Virus record (IMG/VR): IMGVR_UViG_3300034418_003021
Location: 1 to 34,215 of that record
Length of the DNA: 34,215 nt
DNA from: a virus
Strand: one strand, 5' to 3'
In this document: positions 479 through 7,831 of the stretch, piece after piece
Layout of the letters: every line of letters starts with the position of its first letter
How positions within the stretch are numbered: the first letter of the stretch is position 1
Position numbers and translations under genes: made by a program
Notes under the pieces: generated by a model
The model's database searches: none
Told to the model about the DNA's origin: nothing
The model's input: the letters and a program-made list of their open reading frames with translations, nothing else

Positions 479-664
479 TCACTCTCCTCGTTGATCAAAC
501 TTCACACAGTGTGAAGTTTCAAACTGCTTGCACATAATTAAAATGAACTGGGTGTAATTCACATCCAAACCCAGATTCTCTTCGTACAACTTCTTTACAC
601 GATCAATCTCATCACGTGCGTCTTTCCTAATGAGTAACGCTTTGTAGCTTTTGGGGTTTGCCAT
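479..664 (-). CDS. Small protein, possibly ribbon-helix-helix-like
   Basis: 61 aa starting MANPKSYKALL. The ATG at 662-664 lies one base after the stop of the upstream VWA gene and follows a TTGGAGAT ribosome site inside that gene, so this start is preferred to an upstream in-frame start. The predicted order is a short strand (YKALLIRKDA), an amphipathic helix (RDEIDRVKKLYEENLG) and a second helix (NYTQFILIMCKQF). That order resembles small ribbon-helix-helix DNA-binding proteins, but this is inference from pattern only. The last dozen residues (TSHCVKF and following) are encoded by palindrome copy 1 (497-519), so the repeat supplies the C-terminus. A non-DNA-binding role is equally possible. 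Confidence 0.6.
   Translation of the reverse strand: MANPKSYKALLIRKDARDEIDRVKKLYEENLGLDVNYTQFILIMCKQFETSHCVKFDQRGE
497..519. repeat. Palindrome copy 1
   Basis: A perfect 23-nt palindrome with 11-bp arms AAACTTCACAC / GTGTGAAGTTT around a central A. It lies inside the end of the 61-aa gene and 20 nt upstream of the start of the 1-477 gene. Confidence 0.95.
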
Positions 665-665
665 A

Positions 666-1883
666 TCAATCTCCAATGTGAATAGAAATACCGTTGTCGG
701 CGACAATGCCTTTGCTCGTGATACCCCACAGCACGGGTACGTTCCAGCCAGTACCCCAACTGTTTACGTATCCATCGGTCAGCATCACCACGCACTCGGG
801 CTTGAGTTTGTTGTCACGAATGTAATCAGCAACGCATTGTGGGTCAGTGCCACCACCACCGATTGGCTTCGTCGTTGTCATCATCGCGTCGAGATCTTCA
901 AAGTCGTACTTCTCGACGGCACACACGTGTGCATCCCAGTACAGCAGGTCGATACCCTCGGGTCGTACAGACTCAGCGATCTTCTTGATCTCACCCAACA
1001 CCTTGCCAAGCAAGTGATACATCGAACCAGACATGTCTGCGGCAATGACGATGCGTCCAACCGTTTCACCCACAGTCGATGGAAGATACACGCCCTGATC
1101 CACCCAGCGTCGGTTAGGTCTACGCCACGTGGAAACATCTTTGTCCATACAGAATGAATTGATGAACTCACGCAGGGCATCACGCCAGTCGATCTTAGAC
1201 TCCATCATGTCTTTGATCTCTTGGGGCACGCCACCCTTCATCTTGCCGGCTAGTAATGCGCCCTGTCGCAGTGCCTGATCAATGTCCCGCTCAAGTTCTT
1301 TCTGGGCTTGCTCGGACATTTCCTTTGCACCATCCCAATCGTGCGAATCGAATCCCTCTTGCGCGTTTGGATCTTCACTACCATCGTCTTTGGAATCATC
1401 ACATTCTCCCTCTTCACTTTTACCTTTGGTTTTACCCTTGCACTCTTGCTCAAGGATTCGAAATACTTCACCCGCATCCATCCCACGGAATCGCTCATCG
1501 AGTAACCCACCATCAGGAAGAGCAACATCTTTCTCTTCAGGGTCAGAGTCATAGATCATTAAATTGATCACGTAGTCACAGGCCATGTTCGCAAGCTTGC
1601 CGTTCTTCTCGTTAAGATCTTTCCACGTGGTCAGATGTCGAAACGCTTTGTGCAAGTTCTCGTGCAGTATCAAGCCACGCAGTTCCTCGTCCTTGATCTT
1701 GTCAACGAAAGCACGCCCATACATTGCGTCACGCCCATTGGTACAAGCAGTCGGCACGTTGTCCTCAATACTTGTTTTGCCAAGCATGAAGATCCCCGAA
1801 TACAGGCAATACTTGGGTTGCGCCATGAGCCACACGTGGGCTTTCTGGACACGCTGTTCAGCAGTAAGTTTTTGCATAGTCAT
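666..1883 (-). CDS. HExxH metallopeptidase-like / VWA domain protein (DUF2201-like)
   Basis: 405 aa. The N-terminal part has an HENLH zinc-binding HExxH motif at residues 74-78. An acidic low-complexity linker follows (about 149-185). The C-terminal half is a von Willebrand factor A domain with the MIDAS residues DMSGS at 283-287, a Thr at 346 and TDG at 369-371. This architecture matches putative metallopeptidase plus VWA-like (DUF2201) proteins, which usually pair with a MoxR-type AAA+ ATPase; one lies two genes upstream here. By analogy with CobT/CobS or ViaA/RavA pairs it probably acts as the metal-binding or substrate adaptor of the ATPase, but its target is unknown. The first ATG (1881-1883) follows AAGGAGAGTGAT; a second ATG two codons in is possible. 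Confidence 0.85.
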   Translation of the reverse strand: MTMQKLTAEQRVQKAHVWLMAQPKYCLYSGIFMLGKTSIEDNVPTACTNGRDAMYGRAFVDKIKDEELRGLILHENLHKAFRHLTTWKDLNEKNGKLANMACDYVINLMIYDSDPEEKDVALPDGGLLDERFRGMDAGEVFRILEQECKGKTKGKSEEGECDDSKDDGSEDPNAQEGFDSHDWDGAKEMSEQAQKELERDIDQALRQGALLAGKMKGGVPQEIKDMMESKIDWRDALREFINSFCMDKDVSTWRRPNRRWVDQGVYLPSTVGETVGRIVIAADMSGSMYHLLGKVLGEIKKIAESVRPEGIDLLYWDAHVCAVEKYDFEDLDAMMTTTKPIGGGGTDPQCVADYIRDNKLKPECVVMLTDGYVNSWGTGWNVPVLWGITSKGIVADNGISIHIGD

Positions 1884-1907
1884 ATCACTCTCCTTGGTTG
1901 TAAAAAA

Positions 1908-2777
1908 TTAAAAGTCGAAAGCACTGAGGATCTCGTCCACACGTGCCTTGACGTTGTGACGTACTTCATCGCTGTCACGCACAGTGTCTGCATTGACATT
2001 GACAATCGCACTCTCAAGCTTCTGTCGTGCTTGCTCAAGCTTGGGGTCATCGGTCACGTTCAACTTGGTCAGCAAGCCACACAACTCGACGGCATTGTTG
2101 ATCAGTGAATCCCGAAAGATCTGGGTGTTCGTCACCTCACCGTTCTTCAGTGTGCGTTCCTTATCCGCCAGCTTCTCACTCATGTGTGTCAACGTACTGT
2201 GGAGTCTGTCCCACATGTCCTTCATCGCATCGTTGAGTCGGTTGTTGAATGAGGTTTCATACTGCTCCTCAAGCTCACGCCTAACCTCCTCGGATGCATC
2301 AATGCGGAAGTCACCCTTGACAGGCAGGGGATCAAAGTCGTAACTGAACCGAAACTTGTTACGCAACTCAGACGCTCGGGGATACTCGTCACGATCAAAG
2401 AGATCACCCAACTGGAACGCAGAGGCAGACACCAAGGTGTCGTAGTTCACAAGGAACGCTTCGACCGCACTCTCAAACTGCTTCTCGAACATAGCCAACG
2501 TCTGCTTATACTCAAAGAAGTTCTTGAATGGCAACAAGCGATCACCACCATTGGACCACGGTAGGGTCTGCTCATAGTTCCAAGTACGCACAGCAGTAGC
2601 AACCTTCTGGATCTGCTCAAGCTCTTTCGATCCAGCAAGCAGGTGCTTGTTGTAGTTCCCTGCTCGGGTCTTGGTGTTCTTCGACTGGTCAATCTCGTCA
2701 GACACACGCTTGTCCAGCTTGCGACCGGTCCACGTAGAGATGTTGAGACGAACAAGAACTGCGGATTGGTTAAACAT
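1908..2777 (-). CDS. DUF3150-like protein between AAA+ and VWA genes
   Basis: 289 aa, starting MFNQSAVLVRLNISTWTGRKLDKRVSDEI. The ATG at 2775-2777 is 9-10 nt after AAGGAGAG, so it is preferred to a GTG two codons upstream. The protein is largely helical and charged, with probable coiled segments in its second half (EEVRRELEEQYETSFNNRLND and the C-terminal helix). The N-terminal LNISTWTGRKLD pattern and its place between an AAA+ ATPase and a VWA gene fit the DUF3150 family seen in phages and mobile elements; this is a family resemblance from memory. It is likely a third subunit or client of the AAA+/VWA machine. Palindrome copy 2 sits immediately upstream of its ribosome site. Confidence 0.75.
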   Translation of the reverse strand: MFNQSAVLVRLNISTWTGRKLDKRVSDEIDQSKNTKTRAGNYNKHLLAGSKELEQIQKVATAVRTWNYEQTLPWSNGGDRLLPFKNFFEYKQTLAMFEKQFESAVEAFLVNYDTLVSASAFQLGDLFDRDEYPRASELRNKFRFSYDFDPLPVKGDFRIDASEEVRRELEEQYETSFNNRLNDAMKDMWDRLHSTLTHMSEKLADKERTLKNGEVTNTQIFRDSLINNAVELCGLLTKLNVTDDPKLEQARQKLESAIVNVNADTVRDSDEVRHNVKARVDEILSAFDF

Positions 2778-2791
2778 AATCACTCTCCTTA

Positions 2792-2814
2792 AAAGTTCAC
2801 ACTGTGTGAAGTTT
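2792..2814. repeat. Palindrome copy 2
   Basis: Arms AAAGTTCACAC / GTGTGAAGTTT around a central T, with one mismatched pair. It fills the gap between the AAA+ ATPase stop and the ribosome site of the DUF3150-like gene. Confidence 0.95.
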
Positions 2815-2820
2815 GGTTAA

Positions 2821-3924
2821 TTAAGAAAACATCCATTGGTTGTCGGTAGCCCACTTCTTGAACTTGTCCGAACGAATAGCCACTGCTTGCTTGTCAGACT
2901 TCATGATTGACCGAGCGAACAGAGCCTGCCATTCCTTCTCCATGCGTCCGAGATAGTCCAAGAACTTGTCAACAACCGAGGATTCTTTGATGCGGGTAAT
3001 CGCAGAGAACACTGTCAAACACCGAGCCACTACGTCATCAGGTAACTTCGTGCCCTTGGGGTCATTGATGATCGCGTCCCACGTGGGTAGTTTGTCTGCC
3101 ACTGTAAAGAAAGCTTGCATGTCACGTGCCGCACTTTCACCGATGGTCCCTGACAACAAGCTGATGGTTAACTCGTCACCAAGCTCAGCTCTTTGTTTAG
3201 CAATGTGAGATGCCTTCTCCAAAGATCTTGGGGTAACAAATGCCTTCTGCAATTTCCCCGGCATATAGATATAGGCATTGTCACGCTGGGCTGGGTCAGT
3301 GTACGAACCCAAAGCATGTGGATACTGTCGAACCCAAGCGATAACCGTCGGGTCAATGTCATTGGCTAACGCCCACTTGCCCCATGAGTCATCGTCAATC
3401 GTGCCGTCAGCATTGAACCCTGCATGTGGCTTGCGAATGTCAACGACTGTGCCACGGTTGATCATGTGCGCTTCCAGCGTATCGCCCACCCCATCGCTTG
3501 ATAGGTTGGTAGTGGCGAACACAATCGAACCATCTGGCAACTTCTTGTCACCAACACGGTGTTCGTTGATCAGGGTCAGCAGTACGTTCTTGACGGACTT
3601 GATCGCTTTACCCAGCTCGTCGAGCATGATGATGACGGGCTTGCCACTGTGTAGCTTGAACCGTGCGTTTGGTGCGAACTCGGTTACACGGATCTCACCC
3701 GCATCCACTGTATAAGGCAGGGCAAAGTCACCGAGATCCAGCAGGGTGCAGTCGATGTACGCCACTTCGTAGTCGGGGAATCTTTTCTCCAACAACTTGA
3801 GGGTTGCAGACTTACCGATGCCGGGTTCACCGCATCCGATGATGGTTACGTCAGTGCCTGATGTTGCGATGGCATTGGCGAATTGGTTGAGGGAAATAGA
3901 ACTACCGAAATTGATAACGCTCAT
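2821..3924 (-). CDS. MoxR/CobS-like AAA+ ATPase
   Basis: 367 aa. It has a Walker A GEPGIGKS at residues 32-39, a Walker B VIIMLDEL at 97-104 (D102, E103) and a sensor-1 region FATTN ending at N140, all in the normal AAA+ order. The C-terminal half is a helical lid. Members of the MoxR/CobS group act as chaperone-like remodelling ATPases together with a VWA partner, which matches the VWA gene two positions downstream. The start ATG at 3922-3924 follows AGGAGTGACACC. Palindrome copy 3 lies 30 nt upstream of the start. Whether it helps metal insertion, virion maturation or host takeover cannot be told from sequence. Confidence 0.92.
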   Translation of the reverse strand: MSVINFGSSISLNQFANAIATSGTDVTIIGCGEPGIGKSATLKLLEKRFPDYEVAYIDCTLLDLGDFALPYTVDAGEIRVTEFAPNARFKLHSGKPVIIMLDELGKAIKSVKNVLLTLINEHRVGDKKLPDGSIVFATTNLSSDGVGDTLEAHMINRGTVVDIRKPHAGFNADGTIDDDSWGKWALANDIDPTVIAWVRQYPHALGSYTDPAQRDNAYIYMPGKLQKAFVTPRSLEKASHIAKQRAELGDELTISLLSGTIGESAARDMQAFFTVADKLPTWDAIINDPKGTKLPDDVVARCLTVFSAITRIKESSVVDKFLDYLGRMEKEWQALFARSIMKSDKQAVAIRSDKFKKWATDNQWMFS

Positions 3925-3953
3925 GGTGTCACTCCTAGTTAATGTAAAAGTAA

Positions 3954-3974
3954 AACTTCACACTGTGTGAAGTT
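3954..3974. repeat. Palindrome copy 3
   Basis: A perfect 21-nt palindrome with arms AACTTCACAC / GTGTGAAGTT around a central T. It sits between the 42-aa membrane-protein gene and the AAA+ ATPase gene. Confidence 0.95.
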
Positions 3975-3980
3975 CCAGTA

Positions 3981-4109
3981 CTACCCAAACAAGGCTATTG
4001 TCAAAAACAACAACGCCCAAACTACAACAAAAGCTACTGCGGCAAGCGCAACCAGCGCAAAGAACTCACGCCAGCTACGACAGTAAAAGAAATCAAGAAG
4101 CCACTTCAT
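3981..4109 (-). CDS. 42-aa single-pass membrane protein
   Basis: The translation is 42 aa, beginning MKWLLDFFYCRSW. It has a short basic N-terminus and one long hydrophobic segment at about residues 16-41 (ALVALAAVAFVVVWALLF), then ends. The ATG at 4107-4109 follows a near-consensus GGAGGTG site, and its first bases overlap the stop of the upstream gene (ATGA). This translational coupling is the same as in the neighbouring small genes and is the main argument that it is real. It could be a small inner-membrane effector, a holin-like peptide or a superinfection factor; sequence alone does not decide. It ends just before palindrome copy 3. Confidence 0.7.
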   Translation of the reverse strand: MKWLLDFFYCRSWREFFALVALAAVAFVVVWALLFLTIALFG

Positions 4110-4309
4110 TTCACACCTCCTTTGGCTGGCGTTACCTCGCCTTCTAAATAAATATCTGTGTCGTTATCTTCAGCTTCATCTTCAAATAAGTCTCCAGCCG
4201 CTACCTTGTCCCAACCCATGTCGATAGCGTCTTCCTCACTTGCCGCTTCGACTGTTATGTAGCGGTACTCTTTAGTCACCACGCACAACTCGTAAGTCTT
4301 GTTTTTCAT
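4106..4309 (-). CDS. Small acidic hypothetical protein
   Basis: 67 aa, beginning MKNKTYELCVVTKEYRYITVEAASEEDAIDMGWDKV, with a strongly acidic second half (DLFEDEAEDNDTDIYLEGEV). The pattern of a strand, then VEAASEEDAI, then a helix recalls small DpnD/PcfM-like phage and plasmid proteins, whose role is unknown. It overlaps its upstream neighbour by ATGA and its downstream membrane-protein gene by ATGA, so four genes in a row (4753 to 3981) look translationally coupled. Confidence 0.75.
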   Translation of the reverse strand: MKNKTYELCVVTKEYRYITVEAASEEDAIDMGWDKVAAGDLFEDEAEDNDTDIYLEGEVTPAKGGVK

Positions 4310-4527
4310 CTGTAAAACCCTCCTTTGTTGTTGATACCTTTGAGATCTTGCCGGTTAAACATAGGCACATAGTTGCTCTTATGCATTGGGACTACGGTGT
4401 GCTTCACCGCCCGTGCCTGTTCCTCCCCGCAAGGTAAACAAGTAAATAAACCTAACTTCCACCTGCGATACGGCACTTTCTCCCAGTGGCACGCAGTACA
4501 CAAATAAACTCGGTCCTCGTCACTCAT
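4306..4527 (-). CDS. Zinc-ribbon-like small protein (two CxxC)
   Basis: 73 aa from the ATG at 4525-4527, which overlaps the end of the upstream gene by 8 nt (ATGAGTGA). A longer upstream frame exists but lies inside that gene in another frame, and the coupled ATG is favoured. CTAC at residues 10-13 and CLPC about 16 residues later, separated by a basic aromatic stretch, form a probable four-cysteine zinc ribbon. The C-terminus (YVPMFNRQDLKGINNKGGFYR) is basic. Such small zinc proteins in phage early operons often bind nucleic acid or host transcription proteins, but no specific role can be assigned. Confidence 0.75.
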   Translation of the reverse strand: MSDEDRVYLCTACHWEKVPYRRWKLGLFTCLPCGEEQARAVKHTVVPMHKSNYVPMFNRQDLKGINNKGGFYR

Positions 4528-4753
4528 CGTCACCTCCCTTATATAAAGAACCTCCACGCCTAAACACTTCCCTTGCGTCTGGCTTACTTTCAAACCAGAC
4601 GGCCAGCTTCTTCTCCATGTCTTGGCACAACAAGTTTGGGTAAAGATCAACTTTGCCCTCCAATATCTGCCTCGACCGCTCCAAGCTTCTCGGTTTAACG
4701 AAACCAAACTTCACACTGTGTGAGGTTTGCGGATCAAACACGTACTCATTCAT
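4520..4753 (-). CDS. Small hypothetical protein containing a palindrome-encoded segment
   Basis: 77 aa, starting MNEYVFDPQ from the ATG at 4751-4753 after GGAGGGTGAG. Residues about 9-16 (TSHSVKFG) are encoded by palindrome copy 4 (4705-4729). The remainder (VKPRSLERSRQILEGKVDLYPNLLCQDMEKKLAVWFESKPDAREVFRRG) looks like a normal helical protein. No family is recognised. The in-frame palindrome suggests either that the repeat inserted and was tolerated, or that a regulatory site overlaps the start of the gene. A later start after the palindrome has no good ribosome site that I can see. Confidence 0.65.
   Translation of the reverse strand: MNEYVFDPQTSHSVKFGFVKPRSLERSRQILEGKVDLYPNLLCQDMEKKLAVWFESKPDAREVFRRGGSLYKGGDDE
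4705..4729. repeat. Palindrome copy 4 (intragenic)
   Basis: 12-bp arms around a central T with one mismatched pair (CAAACTTCACAC against GTGTGAGGTTTG). It lies inside the 5' part of the 77-aa gene. Confidence 0.95.
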
Positions 4754-4762
4754 CTCACCCTC

Positions 4763-4984
4763 CTAGTTAAACAAAGCAAAGTAATGTGCCTTTTCGCTTT
4801 TGGTCAGGCACTCCCAATGTGGTTTCACGTACTGTGTGTCCCAGTCGATATAACTACTGGTCAACCCTTCATCACGCTTACGCCATGTCTTGGGCCTACG
4901 CACCTCAACGGTTTGTGGGTTGTGTACTTTGACTTTGCCCTTGATCGCGGCAAGCTGGTCCTGCATTGTGTGATTGATTTTCAT
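4763..4984 (-). CDS. First gene of the early minus-strand operon, hypothetical
   Basis: 73 aa: MKINHTMQDQLAAIKGKVKV then VEVRRPKTWRKRDEGLTSSYIDWDTQYVKPHWECLTKSEKAHYFALFN. The ATG at 4982-4984 follows AGGAGAGTGAC. It is basic overall with a Trp/Tyr-rich C-terminal half, and no known domain is recognised. It is the first coding sequence after the long leader and promoter at 5463-5491, so it is likely among the earliest products of the operon. A TTTACA-GGCA-TGTAAA hairpin (5003-5018) lies just upstream of its ribosome site and could influence translation; this is inference. Confidence 0.7.
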   Translation of the reverse strand: MKINHTMQDQLAAIKGKVKVHNPQTVEVRRPKTWRKRDEGLTSSYIDWDTQYVKPHWECLTKSEKAHYFALFN

Positions 4985-5361
4985 GTCACTCTCCTAAAGA
5001 TGTTTACAGGCATGTAAAGAAGCACGCTCCCAATGAACGCACTTCTCGCCACGCCCGTGGCTTTCCCCTCTGCTCGTTTTGCAGTCCTGTGTGGTGTTCG
5101 GGGAGGGATAGTCAAAAGGTTGTCAGGCTTTTGCTACCCGCAGAGATACTGCTCGGGGTTGTCACTCAAGGGGATCGAAGTTCGCTGTCTCATGCCATTC
5201 TGTATGTTTGCCCTCGATTGGATAGATAGGGTCTAAGGGTTACGGTGAACCCAACGACATACAGACCATGCGTCTACTGGACCATGACCTACATAAAGAC
5301 TTGAACTCGTGCGAATAACTTGATGAGTCCCTACGCCTACTCTGCACCACGGGACTTGGGG

Positions 5362-5384
5362 AAACCTCACACAGTGTGAAGTTT
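5362..5384. repeat. Palindrome copy 5 (in operon leader)
   Basis: AAACCTCACAC / GTGTGAAGTTT around a central A, with one mismatched pair. It is nested in a wider inverted repeat, CCACGGG at 5347-5353 and CCCGTGG at 5402-5408, so the leader RNA could fold into one long two-part stem here. Confidence 0.95.
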
Positions 5385-5417
5385 GGAGGTTTGTGTCGCA
5401 CCCCGTGGCATTCGACC

Positions 5418-5454
5418 GAATTGTTAAAGAGCGAGTTGAAGCAAAGCTCCAACT
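5418..5454 (-). promoter_or_regulatory. rrn-type antitermination site: boxB-like hairpin plus boxA
   Basis: On the minus strand the transcript would begin with a 9-bp hairpin (AGUUGGAGC, loop UUU, GCUUCAACU; 5434-5454). It is followed at once by CGCTCTTTAACAATTC (5418-5433), which matches the bacterial rRNA boxA core (GCTCTTTAACAA). In ribosomal RNA leaders the order is boxB then boxA, and boxA binds NusB/S10 to build an antitermination complex. The same order here, just after a strong promoter, suggests that the phage uses the host Nus machinery on its early operon. The boxA match is seen directly; its function is inferred. Confidence 0.8.
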
Positions 5455-5462
5455 GAGATTCC

Positions 5463-5491
5463 ATTATCTCATAGTTCTATTACATTGTCAA
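5463..5491 (-). promoter_or_regulatory. Strong sigma70-type early promoter
   Basis: Minus-strand -35 TTGACA (5486-5491), a 17-nt spacer, and -10 GATAAT (5463-5468) preceded by TGA, giving an extended -10. Transcription would start near 5456 and run left through the leader into the gene at 4984 and the rest of the minus-strand operon. It shares TTGACAAT and TATGAGATA with the promoter at 6793-6821. Confidence 0.85.
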
Positions 5492-5530
5492 GTGTTTTCA
5501 ATGACTTACAGCAGGGTGTTTTGACAGTGT

Positions 5531-5551
5531 AACTTCACACAGTGTGAAGTT
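5531..5551. repeat. Palindrome copy 6
   Basis: A perfect 21-nt palindrome with a central A. It lies 39 bp upstream of the -35 box of the early promoter and forms the left boundary of the TGTTC/GAACA repeat module. Confidence 0.95.
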
Positions 5552-5937
5552 CTGATGCGCTTTGTTCTTTACTTTGGGGGATTTGTTCTGGAATGTTCGG
5601 GCTGAGAGAACGGGGGAAAGTGTTTCGGGATCATGATGTTAGGCTTGATTTTGTCAATTGTTCTAAATGTTCTGTGAAATACACACACCTGCGGAAAGTA
5701 ACTTTCTCTCCCTTTGTAAAACTAAGAGAACTGTAAAAGTCAAATGTTCATGTTTTTTAGTAGGTGGGTATATATATTTTTTTAGAACATTTATTAATTT
5801 AAGGGTATTTTGGGAACAAGAACTTGTGCAAAATCAACAACTTATGCTCTGTACCTAATGTCAGAACAATTAAGAACATTTACAATCGGTTATGCTTATA
5901 AATCAATGACTTGCGTATGTTCCTTCGAGAGAACATA
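5552..5937. other. AT-rich repeat module, candidate replication origin or partition-like site
   Basis: There is no convincing gene. The 5-mer TGTTC occurs on the + strand at 5563, 5584, 5594, 5659, 5668 and 5745, and its reverse complement GAACA at 5785, 5814, 5864, 5874 and 5931; one further TGTTC at 5918 forms a hairpin with the last GAACA. Pairs at 9-10 bp spacing (5584/5594, 5659/5668, 5864/5874) put copies on the same helix face. Orientation switches at an AT core (TATATATATTTTTTTA, 5769-5784), and distances on the two sides are nearly mirror-symmetric. Perfect palindromes 6 and 7 bound the block. Iteron-like repeats around an AT core suggest an origin; a partition or large operator site is the alternative. 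Confidence 0.55.
5916..5937. repeat. TATGTTC/GAACATA hairpin
   Basis: A 7-bp inverted repeat (5916-5922 and 5931-5937) around an 8-nt loop (CTTCGAGA), directly abutting palindrome 7. It uses the same TGTTC/GAACA unit as the rest of the module. No T-run follows on either strand, so it is not a classical terminator. Confidence 0.7.
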
Positions 5938-5960
5938 AAACTTCACACAGTGTGAAGTTT
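5938..5960. repeat. Palindrome copy 7
   Basis: A perfect 23-nt palindrome with a central A. It abuts a TATGTTC/GAACATA hairpin and forms the right boundary of the TGTTC/GAACA repeat module. Confidence 0.95.
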
Positions 5961-5965
5961 GACAA

Positions 5966-6128
5966 TAGGGAACTGGTCTTGCCCACAAACTATATAGGCA
6001 CTGGTTTCGCACCCTCCTCGCCACTCCTCCCCAACACGTTGCCACGCGACGCTCATCAACTTTGCATGACGCGAGTGCAAGCCCCGCGCCCGCCAACCCT
6101 CACCTACCAATCTGACACCAGTTCCCTA
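5966..6128. repeat. 12-bp inverted repeat enclosing 139 nt
   Basis: TAGGGAACTGGT at 5966-5977 and its exact reverse complement ACCAGTTCCCTA at 6117-6128. The enclosed 139 nt are pyrimidine- and GC-rich with no credible gene. The arms could close a structured RNA of about 163 nt on either strand or mark the ends of a small inserted element. The right arm overlaps a CCCTAAA/TTTAGGG palindrome (6124-6139) next to the terminator of the gene to its right. Confidence 0.6.
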
Positions 6129-6140
6129 AAAATTTAGGGC

Positions 6141-6167
6141 AAAAAAAAAGCCCCGCCGAAGCGGGGC
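6141..6167 (-). terminator. Rho-independent terminator with UUCG loop
   Basis: On the minus strand there is a 7-bp GC stem GCCCCGC / GCGGGGC with the stable TTCG loop (6150-6167), followed by nine T residues (6141-6149). It lies 18 nt beyond the stop of the 184-aa gene and ends that transcript. Confidence 0.95.
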
Positions 6168-6184
6168 CTGAAGGGTTGGGGGAG

Positions 6185-6739
6185 TTACTCGGCTTCGTCT
6201 GCGTAGCCGGCGTCGTCTAGCGCGTCGATCAGGAAAGCCGCGAGTTTAGCGAGATTATCGTTAGCGGCCTTCATTTTATTGAAGCCGGCCCGAAGCTTAG
6301 CGGCGGCGTCTTTATCGGTAGCACCCGATCCAATTGCGATCATGATCGTACCGCCGGTAGCCTTGGCACCTTTTTTCTTACCCTTAGCGGCCTTGGCCTT
6401 GGCAGAGCCGTTAGGAAACTGAAAATCGGCTTTCCCGTTAACCGCCGCGCGGATCGCGCTAAGGTAGTTGGCTTTAGTGTTAGCGTTTAAATGCGTGGGG
6501 AGTGCATCGTATACCGCCGCCGCATTGGGGCATGTACGACGCGAAGCGCCGATCTTAACCTTAGCGCCGCGCATGGCCTTTACTTGCTCATTGATTTTCG
6601 CGGTAGCGGAAACCAAAACATCAGCGGCGGCTTTAGCTTGCCCGATATTGTCGCCTATGATTTTAGCGGCGGCGATAACGTCAAAGGGCTTAGCGGCGGG
6701 CTTAGCGGCGGGTTTGCGGTTTACTTTACGTGTAGTCAT
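6185..6739 (-). CDS. Lys/Ala-rich basic protein in a moron-like cassette
   Basis: 184 aa. The N-terminus is histone-tail-like (MTTRKVNRKPAAKPAAKPFDV). A helical Ala-rich region follows, then NANTKANYLSAIRAAVNG, which resembles the helical core-binding pattern of some recombinases but is too short to assign. Next comes a Lys-rich tract (about 113-127) and a C-terminal helix ending in an acidic tail. The ATG at 6737-6739 follows CTGGAGAT. It has its own promoter (6793-6821) and terminator (6141-6167) and is flanked by palindromes 7 and 8. Its GC-rich third positions and frequent GCTAAG/GCTAAA pairs look unlike its neighbours, which fits separate acquisition. It probably binds nucleic acid, but no function is known. 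Confidence 0.8.
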   Translation of the reverse strand: MTTRKVNRKPAAKPAAKPFDVIAAAKIIGDNIGQAKAAADVLVSATAKINEQVKAMRGAKVKIGASRRTCPNAAAVYDALPTHLNANTKANYLSAIRAAVNGKADFQFPNGSAKAKAAKGKKKGAKATGGTIMIAIGSGATDKDAAAKLRAGFNKMKAANDNLAKLAAFLIDALDDAGYADEAE

Positions 6740-6792
6740 TTTTAAATCTCCAGTTAGTTAACCTGAGTCACACCATGCGACCCAGTGATTAA

Positions 6793-6821
6793 AGTATCTC
6801 ATAAGTTTAGTAGATTGTCAA
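6793..6821 (-). promoter_or_regulatory. Promoter of the Lys/Ala-rich gene
   Basis: Minus-strand -35 TTGACA (6816-6821), a 17-nt spacer, and -10 GATACT (6793-6798) preceded by TGA. It is a sister of the promoter at 5463-5491 and shares TTGACAAT and TATGAGATA. Palindrome 8 lies 20 bp upstream. Transcription would begin about 45 nt before the start codon. Confidence 0.75.
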
Positions 6822-6841
6822 ATGATATTTTCGCGCGGCGC

Positions 6842-6864
6842 AAATCTCACACAGTGTGAAGTTT
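6842..6864. repeat. Palindrome copy 8
   Basis: A diverged copy with a central A and two non-matching pairs (AAATCTCACAC / GTGTGAAGTTT). It lies 20 bp upstream of the -35 box of the promoter at 6793-6821. It is the rightmost copy; none was seen in the late region. Confidence 0.9.
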
Positions 6865-7219
6865 TCTGCTAGGGGCTGATGCCAGTGACCCCACCCCCCA
6901 AATTGTGTAGATGGGACCCGCCGGCTGACTACGTGTGTGTTTTGCACATTCAATCCCATCCAAATGATTTGTCTATACATTGTCAAATAATCCATATAGG
7001 GAAAACCCCCCCTTACCTAAATCTGGAGTCCCGTCTCCTTTTGGTATATATTTTTTCCTGGGGGTCGCGTCGGCTCGGCGACGTTAAATAGCCTGTATCC
7101 TCGTAACTAGAAGCAAAGACAATCGACCCCCACCCCCCTTGCAATACTTGTAGGCATCTGTTAGGTTTGTCCTATTGAAACGCACCCCCCATTAATTTTT
7201 TGGAGTCCCGTTTCCTCCG
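6865..7219 (+). promoter_or_regulatory. Divergent early/late intergenic region with repeated C-tract elements
   Basis: There is no gene. ACCCCCC occurs four times (6893, 7005, 7132, 7184). Three copies are followed, after 10-12 nt, by related sequences: TGGGACCCG (6912), TGGAGTCCCGTCTCC (7024-7038) and TGGAGTCCCGTTTCC (7201-7215). The last ends 4 nt before the first late gene. A TATATATTTTTT stretch lies between copies two and three. The late genes need a promoter here, but I see no good sigma70 match on the + strand, so these composite elements are candidates for a phage-specific late promoter or operator. A minus-strand TTGACA at 6981-6986 has only a weak -10. Confidence 0.5.
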
Positions 7220-7831
7220 ATGCCATTAGTTATTACACCTGAATTAGGAATACCACTGCCCTTCGACGTTACGCCAGAAGAGGTTGTGACGTTCCGTGAG
7301 CGTGCGAAAGCAGCATGTCAAACGATCCTTGAGCTGATCGAGTCCGGGGCAAAAATGCCTGATATGGACGACAAGACATCCGAAGAAGCACACAAACTGT
7401 TTGCGGCTGAAAAGCCTATTAGTGTTGCGAAAACACCACCCGCCGTTATTCTCAAATTAGAAGCCCTTCTCTCCACATACGACCATGAGTTTCTGGATGC
7501 CCAGAGACGGATCACAAACTTTGTGACCAACAGGTTGATGGAAGAGACTGAGAACGAAGACGCCGGAAAGCGACTTAAGGCACTTGAGTTACTGGGCAAG
7601 AAGGTCGGAATGTTCTCCGACCGAATGGAAGTCACTGTCAAACAGAAGCCAGCCGAGGAAATCGAGGCTGAGTTGGCTAGGCTCTTAGAGCGTTATGTTG
7701 GTGAGGCCATACCTGTTGAGGCAACAGAAGTAGAAGACAAACCGCTCAGCCCATTAGAGATTGACCTGGATGCAGAACTAGGTCTTAAGGATGATGACGA
7801 ACAGCCCGCAGAGTCTGTTAGAGAAGATTAG
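7220..7831 (+). CDS. Probable terminase small subunit
   Basis: 203 aa, first of the + strand morphogenesis genes, ending 41 nt inside the start of the large terminase. It is mostly helical: an N-terminal helix region (TPEEVVTFRERAKAACQTILELIESG), then a long central coiled segment (PPAVILKLEALLSTYDHEFL onward to about residue 135), then an acidic tail. The small subunit normally recognises the packaging site and feeds DNA to the large subunit. The assignment rests on position, size and helical make-up, not on a recognised motif. The ATG at 7220 has no close Shine-Dalgarno; the GGAG of the TGGAGTCCCG element lies 14 nt upstream, which is unusually far. Confidence 0.65.
   Translation: MPLVITPELGIPLPFDVTPEEVVTFRERAKAACQTILELIESGAKMPDMDDKTSEEAHKLFAAEKPISVAKTPPAVILKLEALLSTYDHEFLDAQRRITNFVTNRLMEETENEDAGKRLKALELLGKKVGMFSDRMEVTVKQKPAEEIEAELARLLERYVGEAIPVEATEVEDKPLSPLEIDLDAELGLKDDDEQPAESVRED

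Follow-up and report, generated by a model that had tools for sequence, protein, structure and literature searches.

Opposed TGTTC iterons around an AT-rich core form a candidate replication origin in a tailed phage

The stretch of DNA considered here, referred to as the window, comprises an entire IMG/VR virus record (IMGVR_UViG_3300034418_003021) of 34,215 bp, which probably represents a fragment of a genome. Terminase, portal and major capsid genes are all present on this record, which is thus not that of a satellite island. Between positions 5531 and 5960 lies a block, called the module below, in which no convincing gene was found, as had been noted from the sequence alone. A leftward early promoter (TTGACA-17-GATAAT, 5463-5491, minus strand) is located at its left edge, copies of a palindrome are found at both edges, and 12 TGTTC/GAACA sites are distributed in between, on the two sides of an AT-rich core.

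TGTTC starts at 5563, 5584, 5594, 5659, 5668, 5745 and 5918, and GAACA at 5785, 5814, 5864, 5874 and 5931. The six TGTTC copies to the left of the core constitute a left iteron set of single orientation (5563-5749, plus strand), with spacing 21, 10, 65, 9 and 77, and the GAACA copies at 5785, 5814, 5864 and 5874, corresponding to TGTTC on the minus strand, constitute a right set (5785-5878). The remaining TGTTC and the last GAACA form an outer pair (TGTTCcttcgagaGAACA, 5918-5935) that is able to fold into a hairpin; a trailing pair of this kind is also present in other relatives and in the Pseudomonas phage Rollin. The number of pentamers, their orientation, the hairpin and the direct pairs at 9-10 bp given by the sequence-only reading were all reproduced, the pairs being 5584/5594, 5659/5668 and 5864/5874. 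The symmetry that it described about 5767 holds for the inner three sets, to within about 3 bp, but not for the outer ones, and its chance expectation of under one site was slightly too low: the whole window averages 1.1 sites per 430 bp, and dinucleotide shuffles of the region (n=5000) average 1.6, none of them giving 12. In a motif-free scan for inverted 6-mers the array site was the top array of the window (TGTTCT, net 8), a value reached by none of 200 block shuffles. A search of annotated phages by DNA similarity with the region returned no match, and an Rfam scan gave none above threshold.

The comparison of the array is based on 80 related viral contigs collected by a terminase search. 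About 28 of them carry the array, which lies 1.4-3.3 kb upstream of the gene for the large terminase and shows TGTTC on the left, GAACA on the right and a spacing that is often identical. The nearest relatives retain all distances (21, 10, 65, 9, 77, 40, 29, 50, 10, 44 and 13), contig L008 retains the left-arm spacing of the window, and groups B and C present 21, 10, 65/66, 8 and 77 or values close to these; polarity is retained among the relatives but exact mirror positions are not. Between the window and L008, 12 of 12 sites are kept with an off-site identity of 0.82 (p 7e-6); 11 of 12 are kept between the window and L090 (p 1.5e-7), and 9 of 9 between L018 and L031, where the background identity is 0.64 (p 2.5e-9). 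This pattern of substitution indicates that the array sites are under purifying selection. The sequence-only reading had taken a lack of conserved spacing in relatives as a ground for giving up a functional role, and the spacing found in these contigs speaks in favor of function.

The AT-rich core, a candidate unwinding element (5742-5801), is the 60-bp segment of lowest GC content in the record (18% GC) and includes the AT stretch at 5769-5784. In most of the relatives examined, the 60-kb G016 among them, the module likewise contains the lowest-GC window of the contig, and in the remainder it falls within the lowest 1.6%. Two sites with the consensus of the integration host factor (IHF) lie on the plus strand in the right arm, AATCAACAACTTA (WATCAANNNNTTR) at 5832-5844 and AATCAATGACTTG at 5901-5913; both are conserved in the aligned relatives, and each of the eight longer contigs checked has an IHF consensus within or close to the module. 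The one loose match to a DnaA box (TTTTGCACA at 5825) is conserved in the nearest relatives only, not beyond, and no LexA-type site (GTTCN7GTTC and others), sigma-54, P4 or simian virus 40 (SV40) site was found within the module.

In full-length relatives the early genes run leftward from the module and the late genes rightward. The leftward genes encode a MoxR ATPase, a VWA protein, a DUF3150-like protein, DNA polymerase A, an SNF2-type helicase and a nuclease, and in addition a 292-aa protein of unknown function, a 77-aa helix-turn-helix (HTH) protein and, with its gene just after the HTH gene, a primase-helicase (955 aa in G001). An initiator helicase of the Rep/Cch kind is present in the relatives G001, G007, G015, G016 and G018. 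The primase-helicase matches DUF927 (7.6e-24), its family profile matches the structure of the Cch helicase of the staphylococcal cassette chromosome mec (SCCmec; 5dgk) with an E of 3.1e-19, and the match to a PrimPol domain is weak (0.033). Contig G027, which is 99.9% identical to the window across the shared part, encodes DNA polymerase A; at least this portion of the early operon is therefore common to the phage of the window and the full-length relatives.

The same layout is observed with other repeats. GTTCCA replaces the repeat in G015 and G016, AATGTTCC in G018 and TTGTTGTA in G007, and TTGTTC is mixed with TTGTGTC in G003. The cultured phage Rollin, which encodes a homologue of the primase-helicase (27.5% identity), carries in a gene desert TATGCAA at 260, 282 and 304 and TTGCATA at 528, 537 and 546, followed by two more copies, as a pair, at 617 and 673; eight of the nine TATGCAA copies of this 61-kb genome fall in the desert, which also contains an IHF consensus at 324 and an AT tract. 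Rollin is independent support for the layout, and provides a cultured representative for the group. Its desert (L203 1-700) also holds a palindrome of its own, AAAAGGTAGnAAnTTnCTACCTTTT, in four copies around and between the iteron sets, and a tract of N is present in the record at about 987-1086. In the Planktothrix phage Pag-Yong1 a cluster of GTCATAC repeats, nearly all in one orientation, occupies the corresponding gap upstream of the terminase (L098 16001-16360) and is a possible distant counterpart of the array.

Opposed iteron sets around an AT-rich region are known from Staphylococcus aureus pathogenicity islands (SaPIs) and other phage-inducible chromosomal islands (PICIs). PICI origins always have an AT-rich region with an iteron set on either side (PMC6092414), and opposed repeats recruit two hexamers head-to-head (PMC9894130). 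Cch contains DUF927 and is related to the SaPIbov1 Rep, and SaPI Rep proteins recognise short iterons via a C-terminal domain (PMC7581432). The C-terminal part of the phage primase-helicase (781-900) shows relatively greater divergence in the GTTCCA lineages than in a TGTTC lineage at a comparable overall distance, which, with few lineages available, fits a phage helicase that reads the repeat. We infer that the primase-helicase reads TGTTC, the 77-aa HTH protein, which has a conserved recognition helix, being the alternative reader.

Taking these observations together, we consider it likely that the block at 5563-5935 is a SaPI/PICI-style replication origin in a free-living tailed phage, located about 18 kb from its helicase gene. 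The sequence-only reading had proposed an iteron-type origin or else a partition or looping site; the former is well supported by the conserved spacing, the lowest-GC core, the IHF sites and the Cch-homologous helicase of the relatives, and the latter gained no support. We infer origin activity, an iteron-binding protein, double-hexamer loading and IHF binding as follows. Monomers of the phage initiator would bind the TGTTC pentamers on both sides of the core and, as the two sets face each other, two head-to-head assemblies would form; IHF would bend the right arm, and the core would then melt and permit the loading of two helicase hexamers that travel in opposite directions. The PrimPol-DUF927 protein of the relatives' early operon is the probable helicase, possibly assisted by the 77-aa HTH protein.

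Several observations weigh against this origin. The window record does not include the primase-helicase gene, which this phage is taken to have on the strength of its relatives; in G001 the gene and the array are about 18 kb apart, whereas SaPI origins are found just downstream of rep. The AlphaFold model of the primase-helicase (predicted local distance difference test, pLDDT, 55) is too poor to define a DNA-binding domain. In the group of L062 type the array is weaker in polarity and lacks an AT-rich centre, and the Rhizobium phage TM27A, which has a remote helicase homologue, presents a gene desert that is low in GC and contains IHF sites, yet shows no clear iteron. Cumulative GC skew, to which the sequence-only reading had looked for the position of the origin, is low over 5-7.5 kb with its minimum at 7484; it does not place the origin elsewhere, but since it follows the nearby transcription switch it cannot here separate replication from transcription, and neither supports nor opposes an origin.

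The constant position of the module 1.4-3.3 kb upstream of the terminase would also be expected of a packaging initiation site (cos/pac), with TerS bound to the pentamers and IHF shaping the complex, as at the R sites and IHF site of lambda cosB. The lambda cosB does combine IHF sites with multiple short protein sites, and between G001 and G007, which differ in their repeat, TerS is far more divergent than TerL (26% versus 77% identity). However, the TerS proteins of G006 and G012 are just 28-30% identical to that of G001 and TGTTC arrays are nevertheless retained, opposed sets around an AT minimum are not a feature of cos sites, and the ends of contigs are concentrated away from the module, in a poly-C region some 600-1200 bp upstream of TerL. 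These ends were rejected as packaging ends, as they are spread over the poly-C region and were judged to be an effect of assembly. A packaging role for the array is on balance unlikely.

It could also be argued that the array is an enhancer or silencer of the leftward early promoter, made of IHF and activator or repressor sites, as in most relatives it starts a short way upstream of a promoter close to consensus, and promoters are a frequent place of IHF action. The distance from promoter to array varies from 20 to 195 bp among relatives, while the internal spacing is rigid within groups, and the array is therefore unlikely to serve the promoter through fixed contacts; moreover, a promoter so close to consensus has little need of activation, the opposed sets at the AT minimum of the genome are left unexplained, and regulation is better accounted for by the palindromes, so that such a control region seems quite improbable. 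A centromere-like partition or looping site, such as the P1 parS in which ParB boxes flank an IHF site, shares the IHF sites and the short boxes on both sides, but parS has no need of an AT-rich core, pair positions in relatives are not strictly symmetric, and no ParA/ParB-like gene was noticed in the gene lists of relatives, which were searched without dedicated models, making this the most remote of explanations.

The palindrome AACTTCACACAGTGTGAAGTT borders the candidate origin at 5531-5551, outside the iteron array, and at 5939-5959, and recurs at 500-516, 2795-2811, 3956-3972, 4709-4725, 5365-5381 and 6845-6861, in total eight copies from 500 to 6861. The description of the edges as perfect palindromes stands as regards a dyad at either end; each spans 21 bp, the single base at its centre being unpaired (AACTTCACAC-A-GTGTGAAGTT). 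The adjacent gene (6185-6739, minus strand) encodes a 184-aa protein, the predicted palindrome binder, with a swappable helical N-terminal domain (about 20-112), a basic linker and a conserved C-terminal domain; its AlphaFold model is a helical bundle (pLDDT 72) with no structural match. The gene has its own near-consensus promoter (6793-6821, minus strand) and a strong terminator (6139-6169, minus strand) that ends just before the module.

Among relatives the bounding palindromes vary and the array is unchanged. Window and L008 have the array in common and C-terminal domains that are 83% identical, but their N-terminal domains are only 37% identical and the palindromes differ. Similarity of palindrome half-sites tracks the identity of the N-terminal domain (Mantel p 2e-4) and not that of the C-terminal domain (p 0.39), and contig L032 represents a natural swap, with a C-terminal domain of L031 type and an N-terminal domain and palindrome of L018 type. 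Because the palindromes change sequence together with the N-terminal domain while the array stays, they are very likely operators of the 184-aa protein, predicted to form a circuit separable from the origin, and not a part of the array module as the sequence-only reading had it. As judged from these comparisons the protein looks like a specificity-switching regulator, and the co-change provides a natural set of matched operator-protein pairs. It was rejected as the iteron binder, given that TGTTC arrays persist beside unrelated adjacent proteins and that L008 keeps the array despite another N-terminal domain and palindrome; an 88-aa HTH protein was rejected as the palindrome binder, not being conserved in all relatives.

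Two further elements are found in the vicinity. Downstream of the early promoter, and transcribed away from the module, of which it is not a part, a leader RNA of about 450 nt (4985-5456, minus strand) carries a boxA (CGCTCTTTAACAATT, 5433-5419), no conserved long open frame and a covarying structure; the consensus has 71 pairs, 24 of them changed on both sides, and the share of paired cells is 97%, compared with 87% for shuffles and 38-47% for slid controls. With no Rfam match above threshold, it is a candidate novel structured leader that may act in antitermination. Upstream of TerS, positions 6880-7200 form a poly-C rich stretch (repeated ACCCCCC) with a conserved block at about 6889-6958, where contigs of relatives tend to end; it is possibly a late promoter, a packaging site or an obstacle to assembly.

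A broader picture can be offered tentatively, with slightly less than even confidence: free-living tailed phages of a large aquatic group would replicate from a SaPI/SV40-like origin, in which IHF provides the architecture and opposed pentamers load PrimPol-DUF927 helicases as a head-to-head pair, boxed in by independently evolving operators whose adjacent protein swaps its DNA-binding domain and palindrome together. The origins of most phages known only from metagenomes are unknown, and the conserved signature predicts one across the whole phage group.

The sequence-only reading knew of no description of such an arrangement; however, opposed iteron sets flanking an AT-rich region have been published for SaPI/PICI origins, and the plan of SV40 is similar. 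Classical iteron origins (lambda ori, pSC101, R6K and P1) likewise have iterons, an AT-rich region and, in some, IHF, but use direct repeats of about 17-22 bp, whereas here a core of 5-7 bp occurs in two opposed sets and no DnaA box is conserved. The alpha protein of satellite phage P4 is, like the candidate initiator, a fused primase-helicase, and the type I iterons of P4 share the TGTTC core; P4 differs in having two separate sites, ori and crr, and its GGTGAACA iteron has no copy in the 34 kb. The superfamily 3 (SF3) helicase origins of SV40 and papillomaviruses combine short opposed sites by an AT tract with two head-to-head hexamers, but belong to unrelated hosts, T-antigen and E1 have an N-terminal DNA-binding domain, and the GAGGC of SV40 is absent from the module. 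In SCCmec the helicase domain of Cch/Cch2 is homologous, and the 5-nt iterons of Cch2 (AAGTG) are similar in size to the TGTTC pentamer, although they form three direct repeats rather than two opposed sets and Cch has no fused primase (PMC7581432, 5dgk). The closest parallel is with SaPI/PICI origins (SaPIbov1 Rep-ori; Gram-negative PICIs, PMC6092414), which share the two opposed sets of short iterons, the AT-rich region beside them (here 5742-5801), initiator helicases of the DUF927/Cch group (here in relatives) and a layout that stays while the repeat changes. The array differs in being in a free-living tailed phage, separated by some 18 kb from the helicase gene rather than lying immediately downstream of it, with IHF sites in one arm, a primase fused to the helicase and a linked separate operator system; being neither next to the helicase gene nor on a satellite, it is classed as working like a SaPI/PICI origin and not as a member of that family. 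If this holds true, a plan of origin that was at one time described as peculiar to phage satellites would also exist in phages, from which it may have come, and tailed phages combining a Cch-like helicase with this plan would bear on the source of satellite replication modules.
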